From Dryococelus australis (lineage: Eukaryota; Arthropoda; Insecta; Phasmatodea; Phasmatidae), in the NCBI GenBank assembly GCA_029891345.1, contig CM057003.1:9118209-9182208 (forward strand): a stretch of DNA of 64,000 nucleotides. The letters are read 5' to 3'. Under the pieces are notes generated by a model. The model had not been told where the DNA came from and made no database searches. It was given only the letters and a program-made list of their open reading frames with translations. The position numbers and the translations under genes are program-made. Positions 1,489 to 57,398 of this stretch are shown piece after piece. The stretch's first letter is position 1; each line of letters begins with the position of its first letter.

Positions 1489-1604
1489 GAATCCTAACGC
1501 CCCGAAGAGGTTCTCCTACCTGACCCATAGCAGAAAGGAATGGCAGCAGTATGACATCGACTGGCCTGAATATGATGTCAAAAATCAATCATATATCACC
1601 CTTG
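1489..1604 (+). CDS. Nlg: Neuroligin gene A, penultimate visible exon
   Basis: This 116-base internal exon encodes about 39 residues near the end of the extracellular cholinesterase-like domain of a neuroligin. The reading begins NPNAPKRFSYLTHSRKE and continues with DIDWPEYDVKNQSYITL, matching the pattern of this family, where an NPN motif is followed by WPEYD and a short strand ending in I-x-L/I-G. It is preceded by a pyrimidine-rich tract and AG at 1487-1488 and followed by a GTAAGT donor at 1605. It ends with the first base of a glycine codon (phase 1). An N-glycosylation sequon (NQS) lies near its end. Neuroligins are postsynaptic adhesion proteins that bind neurexin and lack esterase activity. 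The family call rests on this exon together with the next one. Which insect paralogue it is cannot be told from this part. Confidence 0.87.
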
Positions 1605-2556
1605 GTAAGTAGCAGTTTAACTACAGATCAGATTCTAAGTTTCCGTTTTTTTAAGACAAGGTCTCAATTCCTATATTGAAAGTTTTCATTTTAGTTAAGT
1701 AGCATTTCTTATGGTATTTATGGTGATTTCAATAATGGGAGAATTTTGTAGGAACTCCAAACTTGAACCAGCAACAAAGTAATGAGTTTATTATGGTAGG
1801 GTAGATGCAGCATTAAGTAAATTATATTATTTATTTTAATATTCACTATAGTATGTAGTTTAATAACATAAGCGTATAAATCTAAGAGTCATTAAACCAT
1901 TTCTAAAAAGTTGTTCTACGTTTATAGTTTTTTTTTTTTTGGGTGATGGATATAAAACTGAGCTAAATTTTCTCTATCACGTACCACTTTTCACGTCATG
2001 CTCTGACACTTTTAGCAGTGTGAACATGGAGTTGTTGAAAGATTACATTTTTTTCCTTCAGAGGTATTAATTAGAACATATAATGAATACAAACTATTTA
2101 AAAAATAAGTATATAGGTATATATGGAAGGTATATTTCAAGGAAAATTAAGTTATATGACCTAAATATTAATAGTAATTTACTCATAACCTGAAACTAAT
2201 TGTTGGCTTGTTAACACATTAATGCATTGATTAATGGTAATATTTTGATATGTTTTATACTTAAGTAATTACATTACTTGTTTCATCATTACAGCCAGTA
2301 ATATGTGGAATTAGAGCTTGACCAAAAAAGTATGAATCCTCCATAATATGAATCAGTAGAAAGATTTCATTCAAATGCCCACAGGGGAGACACTGACAGC
2401 ATTATGCACTGAGCCATCTTGTATGCAGTACCTGCCATGTATATTTCACCCGTGTAAAAACATAAACGATAATGGACACATGATTGACAATTTTTTCGGC
2501 TTTCATTTGTGTACTAAACATTTTAAATATATAATATAACAAACTCTCTGTTACAG
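1605..2556 (+). other. Intron of neuroligin gene A (phase 1)
   Basis: This 952-base AT-rich intron has a GTAAGT donor at 1605 and a TTACAG acceptor ending at 2556. It splits a glycine codon, G|GT. I see no repeat or RNA gene inside it. The splice sites are read directly, and joining the two exons keeps the neuroligin frame (ITLG then IPPK). Confidence 0.85.
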
Positions 2557-4979
2557 GTATCCCACCAAAAACTGGACACCACTACAGAAAGAAAACAACA
2601 AGCTTCTGGAATGAGGTGCTACCGAAGTTGCTGGTGAATCCAGGCGATGTAGACAGCGGTTCTGTACCACAAATATCAGAACCGAGCTACGAAGCTCCCA
2701 AACAGCCACCAGAACCGCCTCCTAGATTTCCAGCAACTACCCGCCGACCACTCAGACCACCTTCGGGAAGGGATAAATACGAGAACTTCTACAAGCCTAC
2801 AGAGGATGGCTCGAAAAGTGATGGAGTAGACTACGATGGAATAGTGAGGTCTCATCCTGTAGATGAGGCTTATTTCCCAGGTGGCAAGAAATCCACTCAG
2901 CAGGAACTGCCACAAAGTAAGGACAAACAGTCTGCCGATTCTTCGGGCATGGCACTGGGTATAGTTATCGTAGTGGGTGTGGTATTCCTTGTAGTGAACC
3001 TTAGTGCATGTGTCGCTCTCTATTACCAAACACATCGTCTTAAAGCCCAAGAAGACATTATGAGAAGACGCTTTGAGGATGCCGATGAAGAGGAGTATGG
3101 GACCAGAAGAAGGGTGTTAGCATTGGAGGAAATTGTTGTACACAAACATGATACAAAAGAGCCAGCAGAGGGTGTCTATGAGGCAGTTAGTGGGAAAAAG
3201 ACCCAACAAGGTGAAGGAGAAAGTAGTTCCAAAAGATGGAGACTTTCGAGACAATGCAGTGCCAGTACGATGGATCCACACACGAAAGTGCGGGAGTGGA
3301 TAGCACAGGAAATCGTTCAGAAATGTTCTCCACGCTTCCTCAGGAAAGCGAAGCTACATCATCATCATCAGCAGGTCAGCTTTGAAGACCAAGTGCCTCC
3401 ATCGACTAGCACAGAAAGCCACCCAACAGCCACAACATCCAGGCATGGAATGACAACAAACTCCCAGAGAAGTCGAGCATTTAAAAAAGTGTCGGTAGCT
3501 GTGGATGCCACTCCATCTGCACGTACGGCAAGTATTTTGAAGCAGACTCCAATAGAAGTGAGCAAGTCACTCGACCAGCTTGGATCCAAGTGTGTATCGA
3601 CATCCATGCTGACACTGTCGAGGAGGCCCTCGCTCAAGAGGTGCGCAACAGCCGGAGAAAATCTTGCTGTTGCCTCCACATCGCCAACAATGGCAGGTTC
3701 TTCTCCTCTGGAGGTTATTCGTAGGAGCTCCAGCATCAATTTCAAGGTGTATACACCACCACTTCAATTCCAAAATACAGAAACCGTCCCAATCGAGCAT
3801 CACCATTCCAGGTCTGATCCCGACAAACAGACCAGCTCTTATTGCTCTCAGGCAGATGTCAGTAAACTATGCTCAGCGGGTGACTTGGCTGGCATTCACC
3901 TTGACAAAGGAGGAGAAATTTCCAGGAGCCTTTTATCTACTCCTACTAGTCAGTTGCGCTCATTCTCTCCTAGCACACCAACTAAGCACAGTATACTCAA
4001 GAACAAGAGGGAAGTTGAGAACAAAATGACCTCTGTAAGTAACCTGCCTGTGAACATAAATGTCACTTCGAGGGATAGCACGGAAGCTAACGAAATGTGT
4101 TCCTCTACCGATAGGCTAGCAACGATTCAGAAGAGAAATTTCCCGAAGGTGCTGCCAGACTTCCCTTCTGACCAGGAAGATGTGCCTCAGGAAACAAGGG
4201 AGCTTTCCCCTGTGCAGGCTGTTGCTGCCAAGAGACGGTCACTGCCCATATCTGGTAACCTCCAACTAGGCCTAACGCCTTTAGGTGAAACCGGATCGGT
4301 ATCGCAACCCACCACACCTACATCAGGCTCTCATAAAGACATTCAAACTCAAACCACTAATGGCCGGGTACCACCTCCACCACCACCAAGAGTATCTTCG
4401 ACACTGGGAAGGAAGCCGAGCAATAACTCATCCCCTGTAATCCCAACAACGATAGACGAGCCGCTTCCGGATAAAGAACGAATACCATTTCCTTCTTCCC
4501 CTGTTTCTACTTCGTCGACTCACATAGCGAGACCTGAACCCAAGGTTATCATCAAACCAACAACCTCGACCAGGAAAATGCCTGCGAACCAGAACATTCC
4601 TCGAGTTACCCCCAAGACTCACGACTACCCTCTAAAACCACCTCACCCCACAATGCCAAAGCAGGAAACTCCTGCAGCGAAGCCAGTTTCGGAGAAGAAA
4701 GTGCCTCAAGCTTCTTCGTCCACCTCTGGACCAATCCCGGTCCCTGTTCCGAAAGTGCCAGGATCGAGCTCGCCTAAAAAAGGATCTGCGGCTTCGAAGG
4801 CTTCCAAGAAGTCTTCGGGAACGTCCACGGACGAGTCGGGCTCAAACACTGGGACTGTGAAGAGAGGAAAGAAGCCGTCGGATGGGAAAGGGGAAGGGAA
4901 GCCTCAGACGAGTGGCGGGAAATCATGGTATGCCCAGTACAGCCAGTCATTTTTGTCGCGTTCCAAGGAAGACGGTTGA
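2557..4979 (+). CDS. Nlg: Neuroligin gene A, terminal coding exon
   Basis: This exon encodes about 806 residues ending at TGA 4977-4979. The start GIPPKTGHHYR then TSFWNEVLPKLL is the end of the neuroligin esterase-like domain (family pattern G-x-K-P-x-x-x-x-HYR followed by an amphipathic W-x-x-x-L/V-P helix). Next comes a proline-rich extracellular stalk. A single membrane helix lies around residues 129-155 (ALGIVIVVGVVFLVVNLSAC), followed by LYYQTHRLK as the stop-transfer segment. The cytoplasmic tail is very long, about 650 residues, and is rich in S, T, P and K. It carries PPPPPPR near 4370-4392, two ASILK/HSILK motifs and a basic end with SWYAQYSQSF close to the C terminus. The last residues (KEDG) are not a PDZ-binding motif, unlike vertebrate neuroligins (TTRV). 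The reading must start at the splice acceptor, not at any internal methionine. The family is confident and the paralogue is unassigned. Confidence 0.93.
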
Positions 4980-6033
4980 GCACATCCTCCGTCATCCCCA
5001 TGTCTAATATTTCTCCATCGTTAGTGTTTGGCAACTCCCAAAATTACTGTGGAGCCATTGGTACACTTAATATAGATGAAACGAAAAATTAGAAATCATC
5101 GTAAAATGACATGACTACCACAGATTCCGATATAAACCACCGAAATCTTGACAGAATGCGGGTGGTTAGAAGACATTTATACGAGCAAGACTACTTTACG
5201 ATTGCAAATAGGATGTGTTCATTACTTTAGTATTGTTAACTTTCAGTGACGTGCTTGTAAATATTGATTTCAGGATGCAGAACTGGGTCAAGATGTGTAT
5301 CAGTTACATGTTCTTTAAGATGGATATATAATTGCCGTTTTCTTTTATTCTCAGGGAATACGGTAAATCATACCAACGAAACTTCCGGCGAGTTGAACAG
5401 ACACTATTACAAAAGTATGTTATAGATTAGCTAGTAATTTGTATAACATCGTTGAAGTGACCGTCGTTTAGTGTTTGTTATCTCGTCAAGAAATGAGGTG
5501 CAAAAATGAGGTTCTGATATAAATCAAATGTGTTACATGTTTTTGCGACATGTTCAGTTGATATTAATATGCTTCGCAGCATCTTACTTTGAGACATCGG
5601 AAATTGTTTCCTCCATCAATTAAAAAAAAAAAAAAAAAACTCCCAAACACCAACAATGAGTATTTCTATGTGGCATATTTTCTAACGCGTCAAGTACTAA
5701 GGTGATTAGAACTTTTGTGAGTCACGAATTTATTACTAATAAGCGTCAATTTTATTTTATTTTAAATTTTTATTAATTACTTTCAAATTAAAAAGGACAT
5801 TTGTAACCAGAAGTTAAGAAAGTGTAATTTTATTAATATGACACACATTATTACCACTTCGTAAATACGTATATGTAATTATGTACATTGAACTCTACCA
5901 TCAGTTATAATGACTGGCACCTTATAGAGAAACAGAAGTAATGCATATCAAACTTGCCCCTACAGTTTATTGAACAAGTGGACGAAGATGCTAGATGCAG
6001 TTAATTGGCCGTGGCTAAAAATATATTTATGTA
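4980..6033 (+). other. Likely 3' UTR of neuroligin gene A
   Basis: This AT-rich stretch follows the stop codon. It has no coding potential and contains an internal run of A at about 5622-5639. It is probably transcribed as 3' UTR, but the end of the transcript cannot be fixed from sequence. Confidence 0.45.
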
Positions 6034-6454
6034 GGGTTGTTATCGTTTATTGGGTATTGTTGAAATCAACCTTTGAGAAATGTCACTTTTCCTACGCGCA
6101 TGTTTTCTAGCAAACACTGAACAGCATGCTCCGGGTAAAGTTGACAACAGCGATTGAGAATTATCTTCATGTATCAACGTTGCATTAGAAGTGTTAGGTT
6201 AACCATTTTTTTTTTAATACTGAGAAGACTAATTTTGTTTCCTACTTTTTTTCCAAATGCATTTAAATCTAAGAATCAGAATATTTGTGACCTATATTAT
6301 TTCCTAATAATTACCGTTTTCCTTGGCAGGCGCGTGAATGAAGTGATCAGGCTTAAGCAATGTTAATTTTACACATGGTAGACGAATACGCGATCTACAG
6401 ACAAGCATATCTTAAGCAAGGCTTTCAAATGAGCTCAGTTTGCCGTGAACATCC
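6034..6454 (-). mobile_element. Short inverted-repeat element, subfamily II (old copy)
   Basis: This is a diverged, reverse-orientation copy of the roughly 420-bp form of the family seen best at 29879-30300 and 41381-41800. The segment GAAATCAACCTTTGAG near the left, the GCGCGTGAATGAAGTGA block and the closing CCGTGAACATCCTA all line up with those copies. It is a non-autonomous DNA element with no transposase. Any reading frame here is incidental. Confidence 0.7.
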
Positions 6455-6907
6455 TATGTCAATCAGTATGACGTGACACATACAAGAAGTGAGGATAGAA
6501 AGCTATCAAAATGTAGGGAAATGTTTTGTACATTAAAGACAAGGAATTCTTCCTAAAAACACACTTAAATAAACATATTCAAGGTAAAAATATTTAAAAG
6601 GAACCAAGAACTGTAGTTTATAATTTGCAAAATTCCAGCCACTTTATTACTTCAGCGCAGCGGCGTAAAAGCATAACTGTGTGGACTACATTCAACCTCA
6701 TTTCGAAGAAAATAGTGCCAACATACTGAGTGCTTAGACTAAAATAAACACTAACATACTTATTTCAGTGTGCGCTAGTTTATAGAATTGTGTATGAGAG
6801 GGCTTAATACGACGACCATTGCATTTTTACTCCCAAAGAATAGCTCTGCAGTATTATGTAAATTAACGAAATACGCTGTCTGCCTCTTCAATAATTAGTT
6901 ACTTATA
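6455..6907. other. AT-rich intergenic or 3' UTR sequence
   Basis: No gene is visible. An AATAAA at 6568-6573 is one candidate poly(A) signal for neuroligin gene A. Confidence 0.4.
6568..6573 (+). terminator. Candidate poly(A) signal, neuroligin gene A
   Basis: An AATAAA hexamer 1.6 kb after the stop codon. In DNA this AT-rich such hexamers are expected by chance, so this is only a candidate. Confidence 0.2.
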
Positions 6908-7137
6908 GGCCGTTCACGGTAAAGTGAGCACTTTTGAAGCCCCAGTTACATTTTTCTTTCAACTAATGTATATCCTTCCACCACTTGTTAATGTAAACAC
7001 TGCCATTTGAGTAATAAACACATTGTATACATTCCCCATACCCAAAACCAAAGTCCAAAACCACAATGAAATGAATTTATTGGTTATTATGTTTCATGAA
7101 ACAGCTTCAAAAAGTGATTACTTTACCGTGAACGGCC
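6908..7137 (+). mobile_element. Short inverted-repeat element, subfamily I
   Basis: A 230-bp non-autonomous DNA element with nearly perfect ends: GGCCGTTCACGGTAAAGTGA at the left and its inverted form (ACTTTACCGTGAACGGCC) at the right. It is flanked on both sides by TATA, which is compatible with a TA or TATA target duplication as in Tc1/mariner-like MITEs. It is the best-preserved copy of this subfamily in the window; others are at 25601 and 54431. Confidence 0.88.
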
Positions 7138-10100
7138 TATACTAATGAGAATCTAATAGAAATAAAAATAAAAGACAAAAATAAGGTAAATGCTATAAAA
7201 GACGTCATAGTACTGATACATAGACATTAAAGTGCAGTTCACGTGCACCAGAAAATAGAATAATAGTTTATTCATTGTGGCTGGAACATTTATTATACAA
7301 ATATGTGTATTACCGCATACAAATACAGCTTACATGAAAGAATACAGAATGCTACATAGAAAAACGAAATCTCAGATTTTTTTTTTAAATTTAGTCGAAT
7401 GCAACCATTTCTGGGTGGTTGATATAATGGATAGTTAATGAAACTTTCTCTTAATATGCAGAACTTTTACATTAAATTTAATAATGCTTAAGAAAGAAAC
7501 ATATGAGGGTAATGATAGCTTGCACAACATTTGCAGTTAGGGCAGTGTCTTGAAATTATCAACAGTAATTTAGCAAAAAATGAGCATTATTTTTTAATAA
7601 TTCTTGATATAAATTAGCAATATAAAGAAAATGTCACTAATATATGAATTAATATATTATGACATTTTGTTTTATATGCTGTATAAAAACACTATTTAAT
7701 TTCGTACTAGTAAAATTTCACTTTAAATACAATAACTTTTTATTTCTAAATAGTATTAATTCTCGAATATATAGAATACCGTGTAGTACAGTCAAACCAT
7801 TATATAAAAAAAAATTCCTAGATTCAAATACCTAAATATTATCCTAATGACGAAGATAGCATTTGCTACAATATACATCGTATTTATTATAATTTTAAGT
7901 GTATATACATAGATATCTACATAGGGATTCATCAATTCCGTCCAACATTTCGTATAAATAATTTCTCCCTAACGTTATAAAACTGGCCAAATTTCATGAT
8001 ACTGGTCAAAGTAGTGCAATTTTGTGTTCATAATTTCATGTGTTATAAGTACGAGAGGAATTGCCTAGGTGAAAATAGTTTTAATGTAATTGTTTGATCA
8101 ATAGTTGAATTCTGTATACATTGCCACTGTCAGAAAAGTGCGGATTAGGCACATCAAAAACAAAATAAAGCGCAAGTGTACATAATGGATTATAGAAACT
8201 AAATGGTTTTTAGAGACAGCAAGAAATGACAAATACAGCTAATACTGTCAACGTCAGCAAAAAGAAAAACGCAATATGTAAGATAATTTTATCACCAAAC
8301 AAAGTTGACGAATTCTATTAGAGATGCTTTTACTTCAGCAAGTATTTGTTTCCAACATATTTCTTTAGTATTGCATCTTACGCTGCAATGATATCCGCAA
8401 ATATTATCGGCGTAAGAAATATTGAGAACGAAACGCATCATTCAGGAAAGATATTTGTTCCCAAATTTTCCAGAAACGTTATCTGTAATCGCCCTCTCTG
8501 AAGTTTTATATATTGCCTTCCATAACATGTTATTTTTACGAAAATATTCAGTCATAAATTCTGTACCATACGATAAGCCCAAGTGGTACCAAACTGACGC
8601 ACAGTGTTACAAATAAAAAAATTCAAGTTAAATTTTCGCTTAATTTTAGGTCTGAAATTTTATTTGAAAAATTTCTGAAGTTTAGAAAAGTGACAGGGGC
8701 AACAGAAAAGTCGAAGTTCTGCTGATTATAACACTCCCACTGTATCAGCGATATGAGCCAATGAGGCTTCTAATATATGAATTAAAGGCGTCGCTATTTA
8801 CGAGGTACATGCAAATTAGCATTTCAAGAATATCAGCTGACAGCTACAAAATTTCGATGTGAAATAACTTAAAAGTGGCGCATCAAAATAAGTAGTCTTC
8901 ATTAAATAATTTTTCTCATAGCCTGTAAGTTATATTTATTCAAGGGACGTATGATTCTCCATAATATTAGGCTTAATCAAGTTCCTTTGAGTGCCATCGT
9001 ATGGAAAATCATATTATTTACAAAATTCTTCTTCTAACTTTTACATAATTTTTGGTACTCTGTTAATTACTTGGTGGAATACTGTCTATATATTTCACGC
9101 ATTGTAAGCATAAAAATTATAGGAAGTCTTCTAGAAAATGCATTGAACATTAATGGATTTCAGTAATTATATTTATGCTGTCGACATTTGATATTAATCC
9201 GTATATGACACAATTGTTAACTATTCTCTGTCATGGAAATTTTTAATTCGAGTATCATAACACAACATTTATATGAAATAATGTGTTAGTTGTATGCGCA
9301 ATACTGTCACATGTTAATGGCGAAGTACAACAAAAAATAATTATTTAGCTTTCGTTTACAACTGTATCTTGTGCCAGTTACATATCGAGGCATTCCGGTG
9401 ATCATATTAAAACTGACACATCGTAGACCAACGTGAAAATATTTGAGTCATATATTCCGGATATAGTGGAAATCAATGAATCGAGAAAGATGTTTCATGC
9501 GCACAGATACATGATCGCAATACAATTTTATTCGGGATTTTTCCTTTTGCAATACAATTTCTACTCCTTCAAGAGAAATACAAAAATGCTTTCCGTTTGT
9601 TGAACGTGAAGCAATTCTGCTTATTTTGGGCGATTACGCGATGCCGGTCCAGTTAGCAGACAACAAACACAAGGAAATTACACTTAAAATATCTCTGGGA
9701 TATTACAATTTACTTCTCGCGAAATATTCTTCTATCTATAAAACCTGGAATGTGACAAATTATGTGGTTATGAGATCAGAACTTCATTATTTACATTACT
9801 TTTTATGACTTGCATTTATCATTTGAATGCACGTTAAAAAAAAAAGATACTTAAGCTCCAGAATGACGTTTCAAGTACACGATTCTTAGACGTGCATCTG
9901 CTTCTGGACACTTACGTACAGGAAAGGCGTGAATCGCTCCAGTAAGCAACTAGTTGCATTTTATCTTCATAATATGTACAATACTTATTGTTCATTTTAA
10001 AATTGGTGGCCAATGAAATTGTCTGTAGTTAGTAAAGTTCATATTTTCAGACCTGTACAGCCCGCTGCTCTGTGGAAATATGCTTCAAGTTTCTCAGTTT

Positions 10101-11584: not shown

Positions 11585-11595
11585 GTGTGTGTGTG

Positions 11596-11650
<55 letters not shown>

Positions 11651-11652
11651 TA
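11585..11652. repeat. (GT)n then (TA)n microsatellite
   Basis: A compound dinucleotide tract: a short GT run passes into a long, nearly pure TA run. It is likely polymorphic in length. Confidence 0.95.
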
Positions 11653-12240: not shown

Positions 12241-12244
12241 ATCC

Positions 12245-13726: not shown

Positions 13727-13800
13727 TATAAGCGAGGGGCATGCACACCCGGCCAGCTCTTGTCCTCTCTGCCACGGGAGGCGCTGGAAGCGTGCGTGAG

Positions 13801-15088
13801 TTGTCGCGTTGTACGGCCGCTGTCGCTTTGTACGGCCGCTGTCGCGTGCAAGTCACCTTGCTGACGGCGTTATCAGTCGCGTTGTACGGCCGCTGTCGCG
13901 TTGTACGGCCGCTGTCGCGGGCAAGTCACCTTGCTGACGGCGTTAGCAGTCACGTTGTACGGCCGCTGTCGCTTTGTACGGCCGCTGTCGCGGGCAAGTC
14001 ACCTTGCTGACGGCGTTATCAGTCGCGTTGTACGGCCGCTGTCGCGGGCAAATTCACCTTGCTGACGGCGTTAGTAGTCGCGTTGTACGACCGCTGTCGC
14101 GGGCAAGTCACCTTGCTGACGGCGTTAGCAGTCGCGTTGTACGGCCGCTGTCGCGTTGTACGGCCGCTGTCGCGGGCAAGTCACCTTGCTGACGGCGTTA
14201 GCAGTCGCGTTGTACGGCCGCTGTCGCGTTGTACGGCCGCTGTCGCGGGCAAGTCACATTGCTGACGGCGTTAGTAGTCGCGTTGTACGGCCGCTGTCGC
14301 GGGCAAATTCACCTTGCTGACGGCGTTAGTAGTCGCGTTGTACGGCCGCTGTCGCGGGCAAGTCACCTTGCTGACGGCGTTAGCAGTCGCGTTGTACGGC
14401 CGCTGTCGCGTTGTACGGCCGCTGTCGCGTTGTACGGCCGCTGTCGCGTTGTACGGCCGCTGTCGCGGGCAAGTCACCTTGCTGACGGCGTTAGCAGTCG
14501 CGTTGTACGGCCGCTGTCGCGGGCAAGTCACATTGCTGACGGCGTTAGCAGTCGCGTTGTACGGCCGCTGTCGCGTTGTACGGCCGCTGTCGCTTTGTAC
14601 GGCCGCTGTCGCGGGCAAGTCACCTTGCTGACGACGTTAGTAGTCGCGTTGTACGGCCGCTGTCGCGTTTTACGGCCGCTGTCGCGGGCAAGTCACCTTG
14701 CTGACGGCGTTAGCAGTCGCGTTGTACGGCCGCTGTCGCTTTGTACGGCCGCTGTCGCGGGCAAGTCACCTTGCTGACGGCGTTAGCAGTCGCGTTGTAC
14801 GGCCGCTGTCGCGTTGTACGGCCGCTGTCGCGGGCAAGTCACCTTGCTGACGGCGTTAGCAGTCGCGTTGTACGGCCGCTGTCGCGTTGTACGGCCGCTG
14901 TCGCGGGCAAGTCACATTGCTGACGGCGTTAGCAGTCGCGTTGTACGGCCGCTGTCGCGTTGTACGGCCTCTGTCGCGGGCAAGTCACCTTGCTGACGGC
15001 GTTATCAGTCGCGTTGTACGGCCGCTGTCGCGTTGTACGGCCGCTGTCGCGGGCAAGTCACCTTGCTGACGGCGTTAGCAGTCGCTTT
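13801..15088. repeat. GC-rich nested satellite, 19-bp and 35-bp modules
   Basis: This array of about 1.29 kb is built from a 19-bp module (TTGTACGGCCGCTGTCGCG, about 34 copies) and a 35-bp module that begins GGCAAGTCACCTTGCTGACG (about 18 copies). Each 35-mer is followed by one, two, three or four 19-mers, so the local periods are 54, 73, 92 or 111 bp. It is CpG-dense and contains the CGGCCG palindrome in every 19-mer, in contrast to the AT-rich surroundings. Long overlapping frames here are a by-product of the repeat and not genes. Confidence 0.97.
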
Positions 15089-16326
15089 GTTGCGGACACC
15101 AATTACGGAAGAGGAAAACGTCCTCTACCGCAGGACACCGTTACTATTGAAAAGCTGTGCCGGGGAAGAACTAGTGAACATTTTTGCAAAGGAATCTGAG
15201 CAAAGAAACAGGAGAAAGGTGAGCATGCTAAACGATATTACTACAATCGGAACAGCTCGCCATTCGGTTGGTGCGCTGGTCAGGACCATGGACTACAGAT
15301 GAGGTAGACCGCTTATTCGTCTTCTGTGAATATACCCAACTTTGACCTACCCCAATCCTACACAACTGTCAAAGTCACATGGTCAACAGTGATGAACGTG
15401 TTTGTTTATATCTTAATTTTTTAATGACAAGTTCTATTATATTAATAAAATACTGTTATCTGTTTGAATGTAACCAAAAAGCATTACACATTGGTTAGAG
15501 GAAGTATAAAAACTTCTCAAAAGCACTTGTTAACTAAACAGTGTTTTAACCTCAAACCCAGTCCACGCCATTTTCGCTAGACGTGTAGGCGAAAAAGCAG
15601 TTCAATGTTGGGACACAGAGATTGGTTGTGCGCGGCCAGCGAGATCGGTCTGCCCCATCTTTAGTCTATGGTTCACATCCCCCTTTCCAATCGCGTATTT
15701 AGGAACTGGCAACATATTAGTCTCATGCCACTGTCTGATTTAGCAGCGCGTTCGATCGCGTGTAGAATTGCGGTGTGCCATGGCCACGCAGTGCAACACT
15801 GCCCTTCTCAAACCATTTCAGATCGACTTTAATTTACGGTCTCCGGAAGCTGCAAACAAATTGTTCCATAATGCGTGCTGTACTTGCGTGGGCACAACAC
15901 TTGCTTCATTGTCACAGCCAGTGAGCTTTAGGCCACATGTTCAGTTACAGTTAGGCTATATGAACCAATAATGACTTAGACCAGTAAGATAGTTTGCGAA
16001 TCATTAACCCACAGATAAGGTCATTGGTCATTGAGAGTCGCAGTGTGCAGGACAGGTCAAAAATTACCTACGCGTGCGTAATGTACACTACATTATAAAA
16101 ATCTACAAGGTAATTTCTTGGAAATCCAGTTGCTAATAAATTCGCTTGTAAAACTACAAACTGCTTTCTTGTAAAATCTGCAAAACGTATATCTGCAATA
16201 TAAAAAAATATAGCCTTGTATTTCAAATTACATTATTGAAAAGTGTACATAAAATTTTTATTCTAGAAAACAAACGTGACGAATTAATAATAGAGAGTAA
16301 TTAAAAAAAGTTTCACTATACCAGCA
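15089..16326. other. Non-coding spacer right of the GC satellite
   Basis: No supported gene. A tRNA-like patch near 15630-15690 (GCGCGGCCAGCGAGATCGG, then GGTTCACATCCCC) may be a decayed SINE head. A 67-codon frame at 15768-15971 resembles nothing I recognise. Confidence 0.4.
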
Positions 16327-25600: not shown

Positions 25601-25834
25601 CGCTGTTCGCTGTAAAGTGAACACGTTTTAAGGCACTGCTAAATTTTTCCTTTCAGTTAATTTCTACCTTTCCTCCACTTTTTAATGTAAGCATTCCAAT
25701 ATGACTAATACACACAGTGTATACATTCCATCACTCTCACAAGTTAACAATTGACGCTGCAATAAAATACATTTATTAGTGGCTAATGCCTTTTGGAACG
25801 GCCTTAAAAAGTGCTCGCTTTACCGTGAACAGCC
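25601..25834 (+). mobile_element. Short inverted-repeat element, subfamily I
   Basis: A 234-bp copy from CGCTGTTCGCTGTAAAGTGA to GTGCTCGCTTTACCGTGAAC with AGCC and TATA following. Interior blocks (TTTTTCCTTTCAGTTAATTT, AACAATTGACGCTGCAATAA) match 54431-54664. The left flank TATA mirrors the right TATA. Confidence 0.85.
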
Positions 25835-26770
25835 TATACAAACTTTTCATCAATAAAATTATAGGGTTTCCGCTGAAAGTCCCGTAAGTACACGCAGCAC
25901 TACGAGAACACTGCACGCCAGTTCAGAGCCCTGTGCGTAGCGGCGATGGAGCTCTTGTAGCGCGTGCCAATGCAACCCTTACAGCTCCCGCGCTTCTCAG
26001 CCAATAAATGAGAAAAACAATGCAGACAGCCGGGACGCTTAAGTATAAAGAGGTGAAACAGCCGCTTAGGGTGGGTTTACAACTGACTTAACAGAATAAG
26101 TGTGCCGTGTGCTTAGGATATGAATCAATGTGTTCAAGCGTATTGGTTTATGACTGTCGTGTGCAGGTCGTGACGGGTCGTGTGTGTTCATGGCGTGACT
26201 TAAGATATCGTTATATTTTATATCTTAAGTACACGTCAAGACGAAGTAGCCAATCCGAGCCCTGTGACATTTGTTGTTGGCGGGAAATTATATTTACATC
26301 TTGGATTTAGGTTATGTCGTAGCGTGAAATCGTATGAAATGAATTATTACCTCTTTATTAAAACAGCATTCAAGGTCATGTTTTATTTCTTGTAAGAGGT
26401 TATTGAATTCGCTTTATTTATCCTTCTGCAAATTTGCTGACGTAAATGTGTAATATTGGTATTAGCATTCCCTTCTGCAAGATACCAAAAGATTTTTCAA
26501 AACGATTACACAAGAAGTAACCACAAATAATTAAAAATATGTAAATAATCTTCCCACTTGACATTTTCTCTAATTTTTTCCTGTCTTTATACAGAGTGTA
26601 TCTAAACACTACCGACAAACTTTGGCTGTAGGTTAATCACGAAAAAATAAGTTGAAAACATACAAACAATCTGCCCAGCAAACACAACCTGTCGGCAAAT
26701 TGTCGGCCCGATATCTGTACTGTCGGTAACTGTCGTTTCAATGCCAGAAGGTGGCCATCTGACAACGGTG
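25835..26770. other. Repeat-flank homologous to 59242 onward, then spacer
   Basis: The first 120 bp or so resemble 59242-59360 (TATACAAACTTT, GAACACT, TTCAGA and TGTGTAG blocks in order). The rest holds no supported gene. Confidence 0.45.
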
Positions 26771-37138: not shown

Positions 37139-37325
37139 GACCTCCCGTGCCGCAGTCGGTTGAAGTGCCGCCTGTCTGTGATGCGGGAGGTTCTGGGTTC
37201 GAATCCCAGGTATGGTATGGATGTTATTCTAAGTTAGGTCGTCAGTTATTTTGTAAGCCGTCCCCAGATAATCCTTCAGACATAACACTGGGGAACGTTA
37301 ATAAGCCCAATCCAATAGACTACAT
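37139..37325 (+). mobile_element. tRNA-derived SINE, family 2
   Basis: The head GACCTCCCGTGCCGCAGTCG has the B box GGTTCGAATCC at 37196-37206. The body GTTAGGTCGTCAGTTATTTT and GTAAGCCGTCCCCAGATAAT aligns with the reverse complement of 22790-22961. Confidence 0.82.
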
Positions 37326-46469: not shown

Positions 46470-49400
46470 GTTAGTACCTCTTATGCTGTCATGAGCTCCT
46501 GATAAAATACTCCCAACATTCCCGTTTTCAGGGTATATGCGCGTGTAGCGCTGGTTGCCTATAAATCAGGCGCCACTTGCAGCTACTGTTGGTACCTCTT
46601 ATGCTGTCATGAGCTCCTGATAAAATACTCGCAACATTCCCGTTTTCCGGGTATATTCACGTGCAGTGCTGGTTGCCTATAAATCAGGCGCCACTTGCAG
46701 CGTCAGCTGTTGGTACCTCTTATGCAGTCATGAGCTCCTCATAAAATACTCCCAATATTCCCGTTTTTCGGGTATATTCACGTGTAGATCTGGTTGCCTA
46801 TAAATTAGGCGCCACTTACAGCATTTGCTGTTGGTACCTCTTATGCTGTCATGAGCTCATGATAAAATACTCCCACTATTCCCGTTTTTCGAATATACAT
46901 TTGCGTGTAGAGCTGGTTGCCTATAAATCAGGCGCCACTTGGAGCGTCCGCTGTTGGTACCTCTTAAGCTGTCATGAGCTCCTGGTAAAATACTCCCACT
47001 ATTCCCTTTTTTCGGGTATATTCGCGTGTAGAGCTGGTTGCCTATAAATCAGGCGCCACTTGCAGCGTCTGCTTTTGGTACCTCTTATGCAGTCATGAGT
47101 TCCTGATAAAATACTCCCAATATTTCCGTTTTTTGGGTATATTCGCGTGTAGAGCTGGTTGCCTATAAATCAGGCGCCACTTGCAGCATTTGCTGTTGGT
47201 ACCTCTAATGCTGTTATGAGCTCCTGATAAAATACTCGCAACATACCCATTTTCCGGGTATATTCACGTGCAGTGCTGGTTGCCTATAAATCAGGCGCCA
47301 CTTGCAGCGTCAGCTGTTGGTACCTCTTATGCAGTCATGAGCTCCTGATAAAATACTCCCAATATTCCCGTTTTTCGGGTATATTCACATGTATAGCTGG
47401 TTGCCTATAAACTAGGCGCCACTTACAGCATTTGCTGTTGGTACCTCTTATGCTGTCATGAGCTCATGATAAAATACTCCCACTATTCCCGTTTTTCGGA
47501 TATATTCGCGGGAACAGCTGGTTGCCTAAAAATCAGGCGACACTTGCAGCGTCAGCTGTTGGTACATCTTATGCACTCATGAACTCCTGATAAAATACTC
47601 ACAACATTCCCGTTTTCCGGGTATATTCATGTGCAGTGCTGGTTGCCTATAAATCAGGCGCCACTTGCAGCATTTGCTGTTGGTACCTCTAATGCTGTTA
47701 TGAGCTCCTGATAAAATACTCCCACTATTCCCGTTTTTCGGGTATATTCGCGTGTATGGCTGGTTGCCTATAAATTAGGCGCCACTTGCAGGGTTAGCTG
47801 TTGGTACCTCTTATGCAGTCATGAGCTCCTGATAAAATACTCGCAACATTCCCGTTTTCCGGGTATATTCACGTGCAGTGCTGGTTGCCTATAAATCAGG
47901 CGCCACTTGCAGCTTCTACTGTTGGTACCTCTTATGCTGTCATGAGCTCCTGATAAAATACTCGCAACATTCCCGTTTTCCGGGTATATTCACGTGCATT
48001 GCTGGTTGCCTATAAATCAGGCGCCACTTGCAGCATTTGCTGTTGGTACCTCTAATGCTGTAATGAGCTCCTGATAAAAAACTCCCACTATTCCCGTTTT
48101 TCGGGTATATTCGCGTGTATAGCTGGTTGCCTATAAATCAGGCGCCACTTGAAGCGTCCGCTGTTGGTACCTCTTATGCTGTCATGAGCTCCTGGTAAAA
48201 TACTCCCACTATTCCCTTTTTTCGGGTATATTCGCGTGTAGTGCTGGTTGCCTATAAATCAGGCGCCACTTGCAGCGTCTGCTTTTGGTACCTCTTATGC
48301 AGTCATGAGCTCCTGATAAAATACTCGCAACATACCCGTTTTCCGGGTATAATCACGTGCAGAGCTGGTTGCCTATAAATCAGGCGCCACTTGCAGCGTC
48401 AGCTGTTGGTACCTCTTATGCAATCATGAGCTCCTGATAAAATACTCCCAATATTCCCGTTTTTCGGGTATATTCACGTTTAGAGCTGGTTGCCTATAAA
48501 TTAGGCGCCACTTACAGCATTTGCTGTTGGTACCTCTTATGCTGTCATGAGCTCATGATAAAATACTCCCACTATTCCCGTTTTTCGGATATATTCGCGT
48601 GTATGGCTGGTTGCCTATAAATTAGGCGCCACTTGCAGGGTTAGCTGTTGGTACCTCTTATGCAGTCATGAGCTCCTGATAAAATACTCGCAACATTCCC
48701 GTTTTCCGGGTATATTCACGTGCAGTGCTGGTTGCCTATAAATTAGGCGCCACTTACAGCATTTGCTGTTGTTACCTCTTATGCTGTCATGAGCTCATGA
48801 TAAAATACTCCCACTATTCCCGTTTTTCGGATATATTCGCGTGATAGCTGGTTGCCTATAAATCAGGCGACACTTGCAGCGTCCGCTGTTGGTACCTCTA
48901 ATGCTGTAATGAGCTCCTGATAAAATACTCCCACTATTCCCGTTTTTCGGGTATATTCACGTGAATTGCTGGTTGCCTATAAATCAGGCGCCACTTGCAG
49001 CGTCCGATGTTGGTACCTCTTATGCTGTCATGTGCTCCTGGTAAAATACTCCCACTATTCCCTTTTTTCGGGTATATTCGGGTGTAGAGCTGGTTGCCTA
49101 TAAATCAGGCGCCACTTGCAGCGTCTGCTTTTGGTACCTCTTATGCAGTCATGAGTTCCTGATAAAATACTCCCAATATTTCCGTTTTTTGGGTATATTC
49201 GCGTGTAGAGCTGGTTGCCTATAAATCAGGCGCCACTTGCAGCATTTGCTGTTGGTACCTCTTATGCAGTCATGAGCTCCTGATAAAATACTCGTAACAT
49301 TCCCGTTTTCCAGGTATATTCACGTGCAGTGCTGGTTGCCTATAAATCAGGCGCCACTTGCAGCGTCTGCTGTTGGTACCTCTTATGCAGTCATGAGCTC

Positions 49401-52400
49401 CTGATAAAATACTCCCACTATTCCCGTTTTCCGGGTATTTTCACGTGCAGTGCTGGTTGCCTATAAATCAGGCGCCACTTGCAGCGTCTGCTGTTGGTAC
49501 CTCTTATGCTGTCATGAGCTCATGATAAAATACTCCCACTATTCCCGTTTTTCGAATATATATTTGCGTGTAGAGCTGGTTGCCTATAAATCAGGCGCCA
49601 ATTGCAGCGTCCGCTATTGGTACCTCTTATGCTGTCATGAGCTGCTGGTAAAATACTCCCACTATTCCCTTTTTTCGGGTATATTCGCGTGTAGAGCTGG
49701 TTGCCTATAAATCAGGCGCCACTTGCAGCGTCTGCTTTTGGTACCTCTTATGCAGTCATGAGCTCCTGATAAAATACTCCCAATATTTCCATTTTTCGGG
49801 TATATTCGCGTGTAGAGCCGGTTGCCTATAAATCAGGCGCCACTTGCAGCATTTGCTGTTGGTACCTCTAATGCTGTTATGAGCTCCTGATAAAATACTC
49901 CCACTATTCCCGTTTTTCGGGTATATACACGTGCATAGCTGGTTGCCTATAAATCAGGCGCCACTTGCAGCGTCAGCTGTTGGTACCTCTTATGCAGTCA
50001 TGAGCTCCTGATAAAATACTCGTAACATTCCCCTTTTCCGGGTATATTCACGTGCTTTGCTGGTTGCCTATAAATCAGGCGCCACTTGCAGCATTTGCTG
50101 TTGGTACCTCTAATGCTGTAATGAGCTCCTGATAAAAAACTCCCACTATTCCCGTTTTTCGGGTATATTCGCGTGTATAGCTGGTTGCCTATAAATTAGG
50201 CGCCACCTGCAGCATCAGCTGTTGGTACCTCTTATGCAGTCATGAGCTCCTAATAAAATACTCCCAATATTTCCGTTTTTCGGGTATATTCGCGTGTAGA
50301 GCTGGTTGCCTATAAATCAGGCGCCACTTGCAGCGTCAGCTGTTGGTACCTCTTATGCACTCATGAGCTCCTGATAAAATACTCGCGACATTCCCGTTTT
50401 CCGGGTATATTCACGTGCAGTGCTGGTTGCCTATAAATCAGGCGCCACTTGCAGCATTTGCTGTTGGTACCTCTAATGCTGTTATGAGCTCCTGATAAAA
50501 TACTCCCACTATTCCCGTTTTTGGGTATATTCTCGTGTAGAGCTGGTTGCCTATAAATCAGGCGCCACTTGCAGCGTCAGCTGTTGGTACCTCTTTGGCA
50601 GTCATGAGCTCCTGATAAAATACTCGCAACATTCCCGTTTTCCGGGTATATACACGTGCAGTGCTGGTTGCCTATAAATCAGGCGCCACTTGCAGCATTT
50701 GCTGTTGGTACCTCTAATGCTGTTATGAGCTCCTGTTAAAATACTCCCACTTTTCCCGTTTTTTCGGGTATATTCGCGTGTAGAGCTGGTTGCCTATAAA
50801 TCAGGCGCCACTTGCAGCGTCCGCTATTGGTACCTCTTATGATGTCATGAGCTCCTGATAAAATACTCCCAATATTCCCGTTTTTCGGGTATATTCGCGT
50901 GTAGAGCTGGTTGCCTATAAATCAGGCGCCACTTGCAGCATTTGCTGTTGGTACCTCTAATGCTGTTATGAGCTCCTGATAAAATACTCCCACTTTTCCC
51001 GTTTTTCGGGTATATTCGCGTGTAGAGCTGGTTGCCTATAAATCAGGCGCCACTTGCAGCGTCCGCTGTTGGTACCTCTTATGATGTCATGAGCTCCTGA
51101 TAAAATACTCCCACTATTCCCGTTTTTCGGGTATATTCGCGTGCAGAGCTGGTTGCCTATAAATCAGGCGCCACTTGCAGCGTCTGCTGTTGGTACCTCT
51201 TATGCAGTCATGAGCTCCTGATAAAATACTCGCAACATTCCCGTTTTCCGGGTATATTCACGTGCAGTGCTGGTTGCCTATAAATCAGGCGCCACTTGCA
51301 GCGTCAGCTGTTGGTACCTCTTATGCAGTCATGAGCTCCTGATAGAATACTCGCAACATTCCCGTTTTCCGGGTATATTCACGTGCAGTGCTGGTTGCCT
51401 ATAAATCAGGCGCCACTTGCAGCGTCAGCTGTTGTTACCTCTTATGCAGTCATGAGCTCCTGATAAAATACTCCCAATATTTCCGTTTTTCGGGTATATT
51501 CGCGTGTAGAGCTGGTTGCCTATAAATCAGGCGCCACTTGCAGCATTTGCTGTTGGTACCTCTTATGCTGTCATGAGCTCCTGATAAAATACTCCCACTA
51601 TTCCCGTTTTTCGGGTATATTCACGTGCATTGCTGGTTGCCTATAAATCAGGCGCCACTTGCAGCGTCAGCTGTTGGTACCTCTTATGCAGTCATGAGCT
51701 CCTGATAAAATACTCGTAACATTCCCGTTTTCCGGGTATATTCACGTGCAGTGCTGGTTGCCTATAAATCAGGCGCCACTTGCAGCGTCTACTGTTGGTA
51801 CCTCTTATGCAGTCATGAGCTCCTGATAAAATACTCGCAACATACCCGTTTTCCGGGTATATTCACGTGCATTGCTAGTTGCCTATAAATCAGGCGCCAC
51901 TTGCAGCGTCAGCTGTTGGTACCTCTTATGCAATCATGAGCTCCTGATAAAATACTCCCAATATTCCCGTTTTTCGGGTATATTCACGTTTAAAGCTGGT
52001 TGCCTATAAATTAGGCGCCACTTACAGCATTTGCTGTTGGTACCTCTTATGCTGTCATGAGCTCATGATAAAATACTCCCACTATTCCCGTTTTTTCGGA
52101 TATATTCGCGTGAGAGCTGGTTGCCTATAAATCAGGCGACACTTGCAGCGTCCGCTGTTGGTACCTCTTATGCTGTCATGAGCTCCTGATAAAATACTCC
52201 CACTATGCCCGTTTTTCGGGTAAATTCGCGTGTATAGCTGGTTGCCTATAAATCAGGCGCCACTTGCAGCGTCCGCTGTTGGTACCTCTTATGATGTCAT
52301 GAGCTCCTGATAAAATACTCCCACTATTCCCGTTTTTCGGGTATATTCGCGTGCAGAGCTGGTTGCCTATAAATCAGGCGCCACTTGCAGCGTCTGCTGT

Positions 52401-53530
52401 TGGTACCTCTTATGCTGTCATGAGCTCCTGATAAAATACTCCCACTATTCCCGTTTTTCGGGTATATTGGGGTGTAGTGCTGGTTGCCTATAAATCAGGC
52501 GCCACTTGCAGCGTCTGCTGTTGGTACCTCTTATGCAGTCATGAGCTCCTGATAAAATACTCGCAACATATCCATTTTCCGGGTATATTCACGTGCAGTG
52601 CTAGTTGCCTATAAATCAGGCGCCACTTGCAGCGTCCGCTGTTTTTACCTCTTATGCTGTCATGAGCTCCTGGTAAAATACTCCCACTATTCCCTTTTTT
52701 CGGGTATATTCGCGTGTACAGCTGGTTGCCTATAAATCAGGCGCCACTTGCAGCGTCTGCTGTTGGTACCTCTTATGCAGTCATGAGCTCCTGATAAAAT
52801 ATCTCCCAATATTCCCGTTTTTCGGGTATATTCAAGTGCAGTGCTGGTTGCCTATAAATTAGGCGCCACTTACAGCATTTGCTGTTGGTACCTCTTATGC
52901 TGTCATGAGCTCCTGATAAAATACTCTCACTATTCCCGTTTTTCGGGTATATTCGCGTGTATAGCTGGTTGCTTATAAATCAGGCGCCACTTGCAGCGTC
53001 AGCTGTTGGTACCTCATATGCAGTCATGAGCTCCTGATAAAATACTCGCAACATACCCGTTTTCCGGGTATATTCACGTGCATTGCTGGTTGCCTATAAA
53101 TCAGGCGCCACTTGCAGCATTTGCTGTTGGTACCTCTAATGCTGTTATGAGCTCCTGATAAAATACTCCCACTATTCCCGTTTTTCGGGTATAATTGCGT
53201 GTAGAGCTGGTTGCCTATAAATCAGGCGCCACTTGCAGCGTCAGCTGTTGGTACCTCTTATGCAGTCATGAGCTCCTGATAAAATACTCGCAACATTGCC
53301 GTTTTCCGGGTATATTCACGTGCAGTGCTGGTTGCCTATAAATTAGGCGCTACTTACAGCATTTGCTGTTGGTACCTCTTATGCTGTCATGAGCTCCTGA
53401 TAAAATACTCCCACTATTCCCGTTTTTTCGGGTATATTTGCGTGTACAGCTGGTTGCCTATATATCAGGCGCCACTTGCAGCGTCCGCTGTTGGAACCTC
53501 TGATTATATTATGAGCTCCTGATAACATAA
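46470..53530. repeat. 122-bp satellite array, about 58 copies
   Basis: Head-to-tail monomers of 121-123 bp fill about 7.06 kb; starts of GGTACC fall at 46591, 46712, 46833, 46956 and so on. Every monomer contains, in order, GGTACCTCTTATG, GAGCTCCTGATAAAATACTC, a CCCGTTTTTCGGG hairpin, a variable GTGTAGAGC or GTGCAGTGC block and GCCTATAAATCAGGCGCC, which holds a second hairpin. Variants recur in ordered sets. There are no unique spacers between units and no open frame spans it. Monomers at both edges are degenerate. Confidence 0.98.
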
Positions 53531-53569
53531 CCCAAAGATTACAAACACCGCCCTTAAGTCATTATTCAT

Positions 53570-53705
53570 CATCTTCTGATATGCAATTTGCAAACCTCCA
53601 GGTTGTTCCTCATCTCCTGATAGAATCTCTCAATTACATTATCCTTACTGCACGCAAGAAGTTTGCAAACCTCCAGGGCGTTCCTGAGCTCCTGATACTT
53701 CGTAA
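53570..53705. repeat. Two degenerate repeats at the satellite edge
   Basis: TTTGCAAACCTCCAGG occurs twice, about 70 bp apart, each followed by a CTCCTGATA that resembles the GAGCTCCTGATA of the satellite. They look like decayed or ancestral relatives of the array. Confidence 0.55.
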
Positions 53706-54430
53706 AAAAAATTTCTTGCTCAAAACGCACCTAATCTGTCTGGCTGGACATAAAAAACGTGTAATTTATTTGTTTAAAGGAATGTATCGTCCCCCCCCTT
53801 TTTTTAATATGGAACTTCTGAGATCTCAGCTCACCCCTTGCCACGTATATAATTTCAAGATTTTATAGTATGTAAGTAATAAAAGGAAGTGCCTTTCGAA
53901 CTCAGAAAAATTCTTTTATTTATTAATATAAATATGGACTTTGTTTTTGAACGCACTAGTGTTTCGTAATGCACGGACGCATGTGTTAATTTACTTTTAA
54001 ACCCCCTATGCATGTATTCACTTCTTCAGTAAACAGAAGTGAGGATTCGTCGATTAATTCTGAGTTAAGGAAAATAAACCAAAGGTTATCTTTCTCGTTT
54101 GTTATATATAAACTTGCTAATCAATAACAGATTGCAACATCCTGTTATAATATTTTTTTATGTGTGGCATCTCCAAATCATCCCATAGGGAAGGGGCTTA
54201 AGTCAATAACTGTGTAAATATGAATTTTCACTGGAAAACGTATCCTCCTGCATTGATAAGTCTTATAATCCCCACTTGCACTGGCCAAGAATTTATTTTA
54301 CCTATATTCCTGCTCCAAGCTGCATATCATATTCTTGATTTCAATAGGTGGTGCTGAGATACTTCTCGATTAATGAATCATTACTCCTGGAATTCAAATA
54401 CTTTTGCTGACATTGTTGCATGGCCTATAA
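53706..54430. other. AT-rich spacer
   Basis: No gene recognised. A C run at about 53790-53798. Confidence 0.4.
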
Positions 54431-54664
54431 AGTATGTTCACTGTAAAGTGAGCACTTTTTAAGGTCCTGCTAAAATTTTCCTTTCAACCAATTTATATCT
54501 TTCTGCCACATTTTACTATAAACATTGACATGTGACTGATAAACACTGTGTGTATATTTCACCACTTTCAAAAGTTAACTCTCAGGCTGCAATAAAATAT
54601 ATGTATTAATGGTAAATGCCTGTTGGTAGGGCCTTAAAACGTGCTCACTTTACCGTGAATAGCC
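54431..54664 (+). mobile_element. Short inverted-repeat element, subfamily I
   Basis: A 234-bp copy from AGTATGTTCACTGTAAAGTG to GTGCTCACTTTACCGTGAAT, with TATA-type flanks. It aligns along its length with 25601-25834. Confidence 0.85.
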
Positions 54665-55580
54665 TATATAGGAGAATTTCATGGACCAGATGTAGACTCA
54701 GAGTAAACATTCCATATGAAGACATAATTGCTACGGTCTCTTCTAAATATTTAGATTTCTAAAAATCATGCGTCTTTATTTTTACAGTTGCTCGTTGCAT
54801 TATTGTTCAGTTTTTTTTTTTTAGGTTTTATTATTTTTCTTACGTATTGGTTGTGTATTACAAAACGAAGTAAATTGTAAAAGCAATACACTGTGTAAGC
54901 ATATCGCAATTTGCTATCCAGAAACAATGTTATTACTTTGAAATGAAGAAGATAAAAGATGTGCCTAAGTCCAGAGTTTTATATTTTATATGTGTGAGCC
55001 AACTTATTTGCAAACAATAACTGGCAAAACCAGGAAGCCTCCCTTTGATGCTGCTGATGATATTAATTTCGGCATTTTTCATTACCGAAGTAACCAGGAG
55101 TCTAAATTATTGTTTCTTGAACATAGTCCCTTTCTGTTTGGGATGTTTATTGTTTCAAAGAAGTACTTTAATGGCAAAGAGGGCTTCTGCAGTGGTTTGT
55201 TTCAACTCTTCGACGATTACACATTCATCAGACATTTAATGTTCCCTTCGGAATATGTTACGAATTATTGTATATAAACTAAGGCTTCTGCCACAGACTC
55301 AAATGTGTCTGATGTCTTCTTAAGGAAATACATTAAACTATAATATGTATATGCATATGTAAACTGTATATGATATCTGACTTGTTTTCCTCGTAAGGAG
55401 TATACAGCCACAGGCTGTCGGAGTTGTCTAGTTATAATACCTGTATGATAATTAAATATTTTATAAAATAATTTTAATTATTATTAATAATAAACTGCAG
55501 GTACATTAGGATATTTTTTAACAGAATAGGATAAAATAATGGATAACACATACTCCACGATCAATTTTCAAACATATTTT
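54665..55580. other. Intergenic spacer
   Basis: No supported gene. A 95-codon frame at 54990-55277 is the only longer one. It matches nothing I recognise. Confidence 0.4.
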
Positions 55581-55584
55581 AATA

Positions 55585-55590
55585 TTTATT
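55585..55590 (-). terminator. Candidate poly(A) signal, neuroligin gene B
   Basis: TTTATT on the plus strand is AATAAA on the minus strand, about 0.9 kb after the gene B stop. It would give a 3' UTR of ordinary length. Not proven. Confidence 0.3.
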
Positions 55591-56493
55591 TGATTATCAC
55601 CACTCCCAAACAACACACATAATTAACAGTTAATGTTAAGTCTTAGGCTTAATGTAGAAAACTCCTGACATGAAGAAATCCTGTCACAAAGTTCATTTTC
55701 AATTCATTTTCAACACCTGATGTAAAATGATATTATTACGAATTGTTCAATATTTGAATTCAAATAAGCAACATAAATCTCAAAATTTAAGTTGGGAAAA
55801 TATAAATATATATTGCAATAACAAAATAATTTTAATAATTTGACATTACTTTATAACAATAGAATCATAAAACTTCGGCATAAAATGTTTACAGCTTTAA
55901 CGGATAAACCAATATCCATTCATAGCTGAAAATTATATGGCTATTAAAATACCGTACAAAATGCACAAACTCAAACAGAGAAATATTTTCTTTAAAACAA
56001 TCTAATGTACACTAACATAAACCTTAAACAAAAGAAACAAATAATATTCAACAATGCAAAACTTTACAACATGTAACAGTCAACAGAATTTATAAATTCT
56101 GGTGATGATACGGCGATATTACAGTTACTTATCTGAGATAATCAGTCAATGAGAGATTACACCTTTTATCGTAATCACGTAAAGTTCTGTCCTTATCTTA
56201 CTGCCAGATCATAAAAATTCCTATCACACAAACCTAAGTTTCATTCGTCAGCCTTTTAAGGCATGGCACGTTTCCAAAAGCTACGAGAGTCCTGCAAAGT
56301 ACTTATAGTTACAAATAACAACTCTGCCCAGTTTCAATGCGGTTGCGTCTTTCGCACACATTAACAAGGGAGAGAAAGTGACGGGTGAACAGATCATCGC
56401 ATTGACGTCACGACGTGAGTGGAGTGTTAGACGGCACACCAAAGTCTGGAGCTTGAGACAGTCTCTGAGTACACATGTGTCGGCGAGTGGACA
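55591..56493 (-). other. Likely 3' UTR of neuroligin gene B
   Basis: AT-rich sequence between the gene B stop codon and the candidate poly(A) signal. No repeats are recognised in it, unlike most of the window, which fits transcribed sequence. Confidence 0.45.
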
Positions 56494-57398
56494 TCAGACC
56501 CTCATCTCGTCCATGGCGGCCGCCGGGACCTTGAGCAATGTCTTGGTTGCGGAGAGGAGCGGCTGTGACTCCGGAGGGCTCTTGCCTCGCGGAGGAGGAG
56601 GAGGGTGCGGTACGGGCATGTGGAAGGCGACGGAGCCGTTAGGCGGCGACGGCGCCACGTTGTTGGGGCACTTCTGGTCGTCGCGCTGCGGCTGCAGCAC
56701 GCTCGGCGAGGGCGGCGGCGCCTTCAGGAGGCTGGTGAGCGCCCCGCCGCCGAGGTGTTTCTCCTGAGAGGGGTCGCCGTCGACGTCCACAACCACGCTG
56801 GCAGGGTGGAACTGCCCGCGCGCCGGCTTCCCCACGCCGTCGAAGCTGCCCGAGTGGTTCTGGCGGCCGCCGACGGCTGGGCCTTGCTGCTGCTGGAGGG
56901 ACTTGACCTCGAGGCGCGTCTTGTCGCGCTGGTAGTAGACGCCGGCGAAGATGAGCACGTTGAGGACGAGCAGCGAGCAGCCTATGGCGATGGTGACGCT
57001 GAGGGCGGAGGAGTAGGCGGCGTACCCCGCCGCCTCGAGGCTGGCTAAGGTGTCGTTGCCGGCGTGCTGGGTGAGGTGCGTCGATGGCCACTGCCCATGC
57101 AACAACAAGGGCACGCAGGTCGTCGCGGCCGGGGGTTCCGCCGTCGTGCCGTCCGAGTAGTTGCCGGACCTCGCCGGAGTCTGCGGAGAGCTGGAGCCGT
57201 CGCCCGACGAGGGGAAGGCGCGCGACAGGGGGTCGGCGCGCACAACACCGTCGTACAGCTCCGGGTCGTTGTGGTTGCGGAAGAGGTTGTGTCGCGGGGC
57301 CGTGTCCTCCATGCCGGCGCGGTGCAGCTCTGGGATCAGCCGCAACCACACGGACAACTGGTGGGACCGGAAGTGGTTCTTCATACGCGGCTTCATGC
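56494..57398 (-). CDS. Nlg: Neuroligin gene B, terminal coding exon
   Basis: The exon begins after a TTGCAG acceptor (57404-57399 on the minus strand) and encodes about 300 residues, ending in a TGA at 56496-56494. It opens GMKPRMKNHFRSHQLSVWL, then RLIPELHRAG, the end of the neuroligin esterase-like domain. A stalk with two N-glycosylation sequons (NYS, NDT) follows, and a single membrane helix at about residues 131-155 (ALSVTIAIGCSLLVLNVLIF), then GVYYQRDKT. The cytoplasmic tail is short, about 145 residues, with PHPPPPPRGKSPP and the end MDEMRV. The hydrophobic residues at positions -2 and 0 (M and V) fit a class II PDZ ligand. The exon is very GC-rich. The acceptor splits a glycine codon exactly as in gene A. 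Earlier exons lie to the right, beyond the window. Confidence 0.93.

Follow-up and report, generated by a model that had tools for sequence, protein, structure and literature searches.

The closest described system is the insect neuroligin cluster NLG-3, NLG-1 and NLG-4. In the published passages available to us these genes form a tight cluster, the order and orientation of which are conserved in bee, fly and mosquito (PMC1761136, PMC2570956, PMC3017765), where NLG-1 is the central gene and NLG-3 its head-to-head neighbour (PMC1761136). The neuroligin numbers given in these passages are five for the bee, five for the mosquito and four for the fly (PMC2570956). No report of tail-to-tail neuroligins in insects was found in our literature search.

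The window, i.e. the whole stretch of DNA that was analysed (64,000 nucleotides, C11:9118209-9182208, within a genome of 3.415 Gb), contains the 3' ends of two convergent neuroligin genes, A on the plus and B on the minus strand. The exons of the whole genes were placed by genome searches with the COesterase family, both 3' ends, the joined exons of gene A and its second exon, and with the use of 200 kb of sequence upstream of the window (Table 1). Most exon structures were established in this way. The exons are collinear in both genes, with gene A spanning about 8.69-9.12 Mb (plus strand) and gene B 9.70-9.17 Mb (minus strand). The first exon of gene A was assigned from its location and from the fact that the two remaining first exons nearby suit gene B and a third neuroligin, X1. 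In the case of gene B, no next-upstream exon was recognisable by a pattern scan of window positions 57399-64000. The order X1(-), A(+), B(-) results in one head-to-head and one tail-to-tail junction, and the triplet covers ~2.8 Mb of C11 (6.87-9.70 Mb), with no further neuroligin matches between the three genes in the genome searches.

Table 1. Features of the neuroligin genes A, B and X1 and of the interval between A and B (W, window positions; C11, contig positions, which outside the window are match positions and not exact exon ends)
Feature	Reference	Position	Strand	Remarks
Gene A penultimate coding exon	W	1489-1604	+	116 nt, 3' end in phase 1; from splice signals, translation and neuroligin alignment
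Gene A terminal coding exon	W	2557-4979	+	End of esterase-like domain, stalk, membrane helix, cytoplasmic tail, stop TGA
Gene A predicted membrane helix	W	2958-3020	+	Kyte-Doolittle maximum 2.75, exon residues 135-155
Gene B terminal coding exon	W	57398-56494	-	End of esterase-like domain, stalk, membrane helix, tail, stop
Gene B predicted membrane helix	W	56944-57006	-	Kyte-Doolittle maximum 2.36, exon residues 132-152
Interval between the A and B stops	W	4980-56493	.	51,514 bp, no N
121-bp tandem satellite	W	46470-53529	.	58.3 copies, ~3 kb past gene B stop
First AATAAA past gene A stop	W	6568-6573	+	Candidate poly(A) signal; earlier ATTAAA at 5619
First AATAAA past gene B stop	W	55585-55590	-	Candidate poly(A) signal; earlier ATTAAA at 55836
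Gene A exons E1-E4	C11	8690122, 9024017, 9075350, 9087246	+	E1 by position
Gene A exons E5-E8	C11	9107638, 9111336, 9119697, 9120765	+	Genome matches
Gene B exons E1-E4	C11	9698606, 9371971, 9318444, 9272461	-	Genome matches
Gene B exons E5, E6, terminal	C11	9264897, 9209203, 9175606	-	Penultimate exon missing
X1 exons E1-E4	C11	8468120, 7220532, 7050744, 7029767	-	Third neuroligin
X1 exons E5, E6, terminal	C11	7024283, 6929732, 6866988	-	Third neuroligin

The two 3' ends agree well with the initial annotation, which had described convergent neuroligin termini, a shared glycine junction and a membrane helix about 130 residues past it. The penultimate exon of gene A is preceded by the acceptor GTTTTCAG and followed by the donor GTAAGT from position 1605, and its terminal exon by the acceptor TCTGTTACAG, with the split codon G|GT (glycine, phase 1). 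The terminal exon of gene B is preceded on the minus strand by the acceptor TTTGTTGCAG and its frame gives a phase-1 junction with the codon x|GC. The shared phase thus stands for both genes and the glycine for gene A, while in gene B the codon is glycine only with G as the last base of the upstream exon. In both terminal exons a stalk is followed by a single predicted membrane helix and a cytoplasmic tail, the helix (taken as the strongest 21-residue hydrophobic stretch) beginning at residue 135 from the split glycine in A and at residue 132 in B. The membrane segment of gene B matches those of neuroligin-2 and -3; in Pfam neither terminal exon gives a match. The tails differ greatly in length: that of gene B has 149 residues and the C-terminus MRV, and that of gene A has 652 residues in a single exon (window positions 3021-4976), in a frame that ends SKEDG, with no Arg-Val.

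The triplet resembles the published cluster in that three neighbours lie on one chromosome, the middle gene is head-to-head with one of the others, and the genes are large and intron-rich. It differs in its dimensions, as the head-to-head first exons of X1 and A are 222 kb apart here and less than 2 kb apart in the bee according to the passages seen (PMC1761136, PMC2570956), and the triplet extends over megabases, with extra members of the X1 and B groups elsewhere in the genome. Since the triplet has the shape of the published cluster, A is most likely NLG1 by analogy, a name that follows gene order and orientation, and by the same token B would belong to the NLG4 group and X1 would be NLG3. 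We therefore consider it likely that A and B are anciently diverged neuroligins in an old chromosomal setting, part of an arrangement NLG3(-) NLG1(+) NLG4(-), in which they would make up two thirds of the conserved triplet and X1 the remaining member. The pair is probably ancient, since the order X1(-) A(+) B(-) fits that cluster; conservation of the A-B convergence itself across insects is presumed, as the published passages give no orientation for NLG-4. In the simplest view the convergence would be a relic of cluster assembly and not a regulatory device. The pair looks like a correct observation that was over-read, the cluster seemingly being already described for insects.

The intron shared by A and B had been taken in the initial annotation as a sign of common descent by local duplication with inversion. 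In 10 out of 10 neuroligin loci that were read, those on contigs C8, C13 and C14 among them, the phase-1 junction falls at the same aligned codon (both C14 genes have the membrane helix in a later exon of its own). It is thus a family trait and no evidence for a local event. In respect to sequence identity, gene B is closest to C13 (81%) and C8 (75%), followed by the C11 gene at 22.9 Mb and X1 (66% each), and it is only 46% identical to gene A, which in turn shows 42-54% identity to the other nine loci. A tree was calculated from up to 7 exons per gene, taking E1 to E6 and the first part of the terminal exon and omitting E7, with an acetylcholinesterase (AChE) outgroup that lacks E1 and the last piece; exons are missing from the rows of C13 (E1), C14_98 (E1, E6), C8 and C14_75 (E6) and C11_22 (E2, E6), and E4 and E5 are represented by partial pieces in several cases. 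Genes B, C13, C8 and C11_22 form one clade (support 99.9/100), X1, C11_42 and C11_55 another (98.2/99), and the position of gene A, external to the nine others, is weakly supported (94.4/56). The topology that makes A and B sisters is rejected (delta lnL 50.8, p-AU 0.000375), and no rejection results when A is joined to the entire B clade (p-AU 0.135) or to the entire X1 clade (0.62). The candidate grouping of A and X1 as sisters is rejected by the AU test (0.0122), and the KH (0.0558) and SH (0.261) tests do not reject it. Common descent therefore holds in the sense that both genes are neuroligins with a shared intron position, and the descent of one from the other by a local event does not. 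Adjacency, convergent orientation, membership in one family and the common junction are what one would expect if A and B were the products of one local duplication with inversion of each other; with the junction present in all ten loci, the closer relatives of B and the rejected sister topology, A and B are not nearest relatives and such an origin is very unlikely. The triplet may go back to a much older local duplication, and gene B nonetheless has closer relatives than its neighbour. More generally, an intron shared by a whole family cannot by itself prove local duplication.

Several features of gene A speak against the name NLG1. In the bee a C-terminal Arg and Val, described as critical in the passages seen, is present in 5/5 neuroligins, and the frame of gene A ends without it. 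Two of the six dimer-interface residues given for AmNLG1 in the available text (F625, W626, H629, E458, Q459, F463; PMC2570956) are shared by A (F625 and W626, with the published numbers mapped onto the alignment by us). Gene A is also far longer, as its last exon alone encodes 807 residues, and the whole AmNLG1 reading frame is given as 2430 bp (PMC2570956). The weakly supported place of A in the tree counts against the naming as well. On the other side, A is a divergent member of the family, as its identity values show, and its last two exons are without a strong match at the other loci. In the fly, Nlg1 (DNlg1) is the sole neuroligin for which a tail with a WIRS motif is reported, as far as the passages seen show (PMC5873926). 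Likewise, among the 7 of the 10 tails scanned here, a WIRS match (LRSFSP) is present once in the tail of A and absent from the other six, a likeness in the occurrence of the motif only, with a chance expectation of 0.52 matches for the tail of A.

The interval between the stops is rich in repeats. In total 16.4 kb of it is repeated internally or common to the 200 kb upstream of the window, and this portion takes in most of the 121-bp satellite. The satellite has no other place in one genome search, an absence of match that does not prove rarity. A single unit folds better than its shuffles (z of -2.60 for the plus and -3.85 for the minus strand). The RNAalifold consensus (53 distinct of 57 extracted units) is a different fold from the single-unit hairpin and shows no compensatory changes, with paired columns less variable than the rest (0.023 vs 0.086). 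A Pfam scan of 9 of the 16 interval open reading frames of at least 120 codons, and of one beyond gene B, gave zero matches at the family cut-off and weak ones below it (best E 0.00073), and Rfam gave zero matches at gathering scores. Among other elements, an ARAGORN tRNA-His-like match lies at window positions 37140-37217, which may form the head of a tRNA-derived SINE, and a GC-rich minisatellite with 54- and 73-bp periods (GTCGCGTTGTACGGCCGCT...) at 13803-15090.

The 7-kb tandem array and the many repeats are the kind of sequence in which the contig could have been misassembled between A and B. No N is present in the 264 kb read, the exons of both genes are collinear away from the interval, and the arrangement with X1 included has a published shape, so that we give this possibility little credit. 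Even less can be said for the proposal of the initial annotation that the 3' UTRs of the two genes might overlap. Such ends would form natural antisense pairs with mutual regulation, for which the convergent orientation alone speaks, and for an overlap the two 3' UTRs together would have to exceed 51.5 kb and run through repeats and the satellite. The first AATAAA is found 0.9 kb past the stop in gene B and 1.6 kb in gene A, with ATTAAA closer in both; such hexamers are frequent by chance in AT-rich DNA. With 51,514 bp between the stops and the satellite and other repeats intervening, antisense pairing is unsupported and appears highly improbable, and the preferred reading remains that of two old neighbours whose convergence would have no function.

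The assignment of both genes to the neuroligins, made in the initial annotation, is confirmed by the joined exons, which favour neuroligins over acetylcholinesterases by more than 140 bits. For both genes the best relatives of solved structure are neuroligins: within the best 60 matches, the joined exons of gene A give human neuroligin-4X at 395.5 bits (E 3.9e-117) vs 240.8 for the best AChE, and those of gene B give neuroligin-1 at 357.6 bits (E 1e-105) vs 208.6; with such E-values chance resemblance is excluded. The nucleophile elbow is without the catalytic serine in both (GHDTG in A, GHGTG in B). The last two exons of gene A alone are ambiguous (28.2 bits for neuroligin vs 25.6 for AChE), and their only strong genome matches are themselves, with three others at E 1.0 to 6.1, so that the full exon set was needed. 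A gliotactin- or AChE-like nature of gene A, raised by these near-equal scores, was dropped after the joined-exon result. That one of the genes comes from another cholinesterase-like adhesion family, or is AChE-like, is hardly credible in spite of the near-tied short exons and their missing counterparts at other neuroligin loci, given the joined-exon scores and a second exon of A that is 57-93% identical to the nine other loci (at least 77% in eight of them). The best 60 matches of the joined A exons include no gliotactin. As in vertebrate NLGN1-4, A and B combine an esterase-like domain lacking the catalytic serine with a single membrane helix, and each would encode a cholinesterase-like synaptic adhesion protein that crosses the membrane once and is catalytically dead. 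Unlike NLGN1-4, gene A has the very long tail and, in the frame read, no Arg-Val end. A C-terminal PDZ ligand is typical of neuroligins and is not taken here as indispensable; it is present in B and absent from the frame of A, which may have an alternative spliced end.

The second exon of gene A matches 15 places of the genome at E <= 0.01. At least ten loci were counted as neuroligins: A, B, X1, the genes on C11 at 22.9, 42.3 and 55.6 Mb, one each on C8 and C13, and two on C14; all such counts are lower bounds. Five weaker matches (28.5-41.8 bits) were assigned to other esterases. This exon by itself does not separate the two groups sharply: the C11 gene at 22.9 Mb scores 42.2 bits, and it was counted as a neuroligin because its other exons group in the B clade. 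The C-termini are LRV in X1, MRV in C8, ISV in the two C14 genes and MRA in C13, and the tails of the three further C11 genes, read unspliced, end in C-termini of other kinds. A ten-gene neuroligin set was found reported neither for cockroaches nor for other insects in the titles and abstract beginnings searched, and the neuroligin passages on a stink bug (PMC7071726) yielded no useful gene number. Bombyx mori is alike in that NLG-4 is duplicated, and it differs in having five putative neuroligins and one NLG-4 candidate in the passages seen (PMC3017765), against at least ten loci here, the additional members lying on contigs C8, C11 and C13.

An eleventh place, C11:48410700-48413200, holds a decayed copy of the terminal exon of gene B (84% identity over 114 bp and 68% over a gapped stretch of 465 columns), interrupted by a repeat that is also present at window positions 25603-25839 and 54435-54668. 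On C14 a stretch resembling a neuroligin first exon was observed at 97500457 (+). The 98-Mb gene, for which the searches gave no first exon, has its exons on the opposite strand at a distance of 0.7-1.0 Mb; the stretch may belong to a further gene, or it may reflect an inversion or an assembly error.

Intron-bearing copies of both the X1 group and the B group are dispersed elsewhere in the genome. There is about an even chance that X1-A-B represents the parent stock, from which NLG3-like and NLG4-like copies were dispersed, with A staying single and having a very long tail. In such a history the NLG3-like gene would have given rise to the C11 genes at 42 and 55 Mb, and the NLG4-like gene to those on C13 and C8, at 23 Mb of C11, and the decayed copy at 48.4 Mb.

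In general, the ten-locus repertoire, although a by-product, is more notable than the convergent pair itself. If it is confirmed with RNA, the neuroligin number would be at least twice that of the bee, and the usual C-terminal PDZ ligand would be gone from several copies, offering natural material for how extra synaptic adhesion genes diverge. If the naming holds, the cluster known from bee, fly and mosquito would be extended to a very large insect genome, which suggests an old arrangement.
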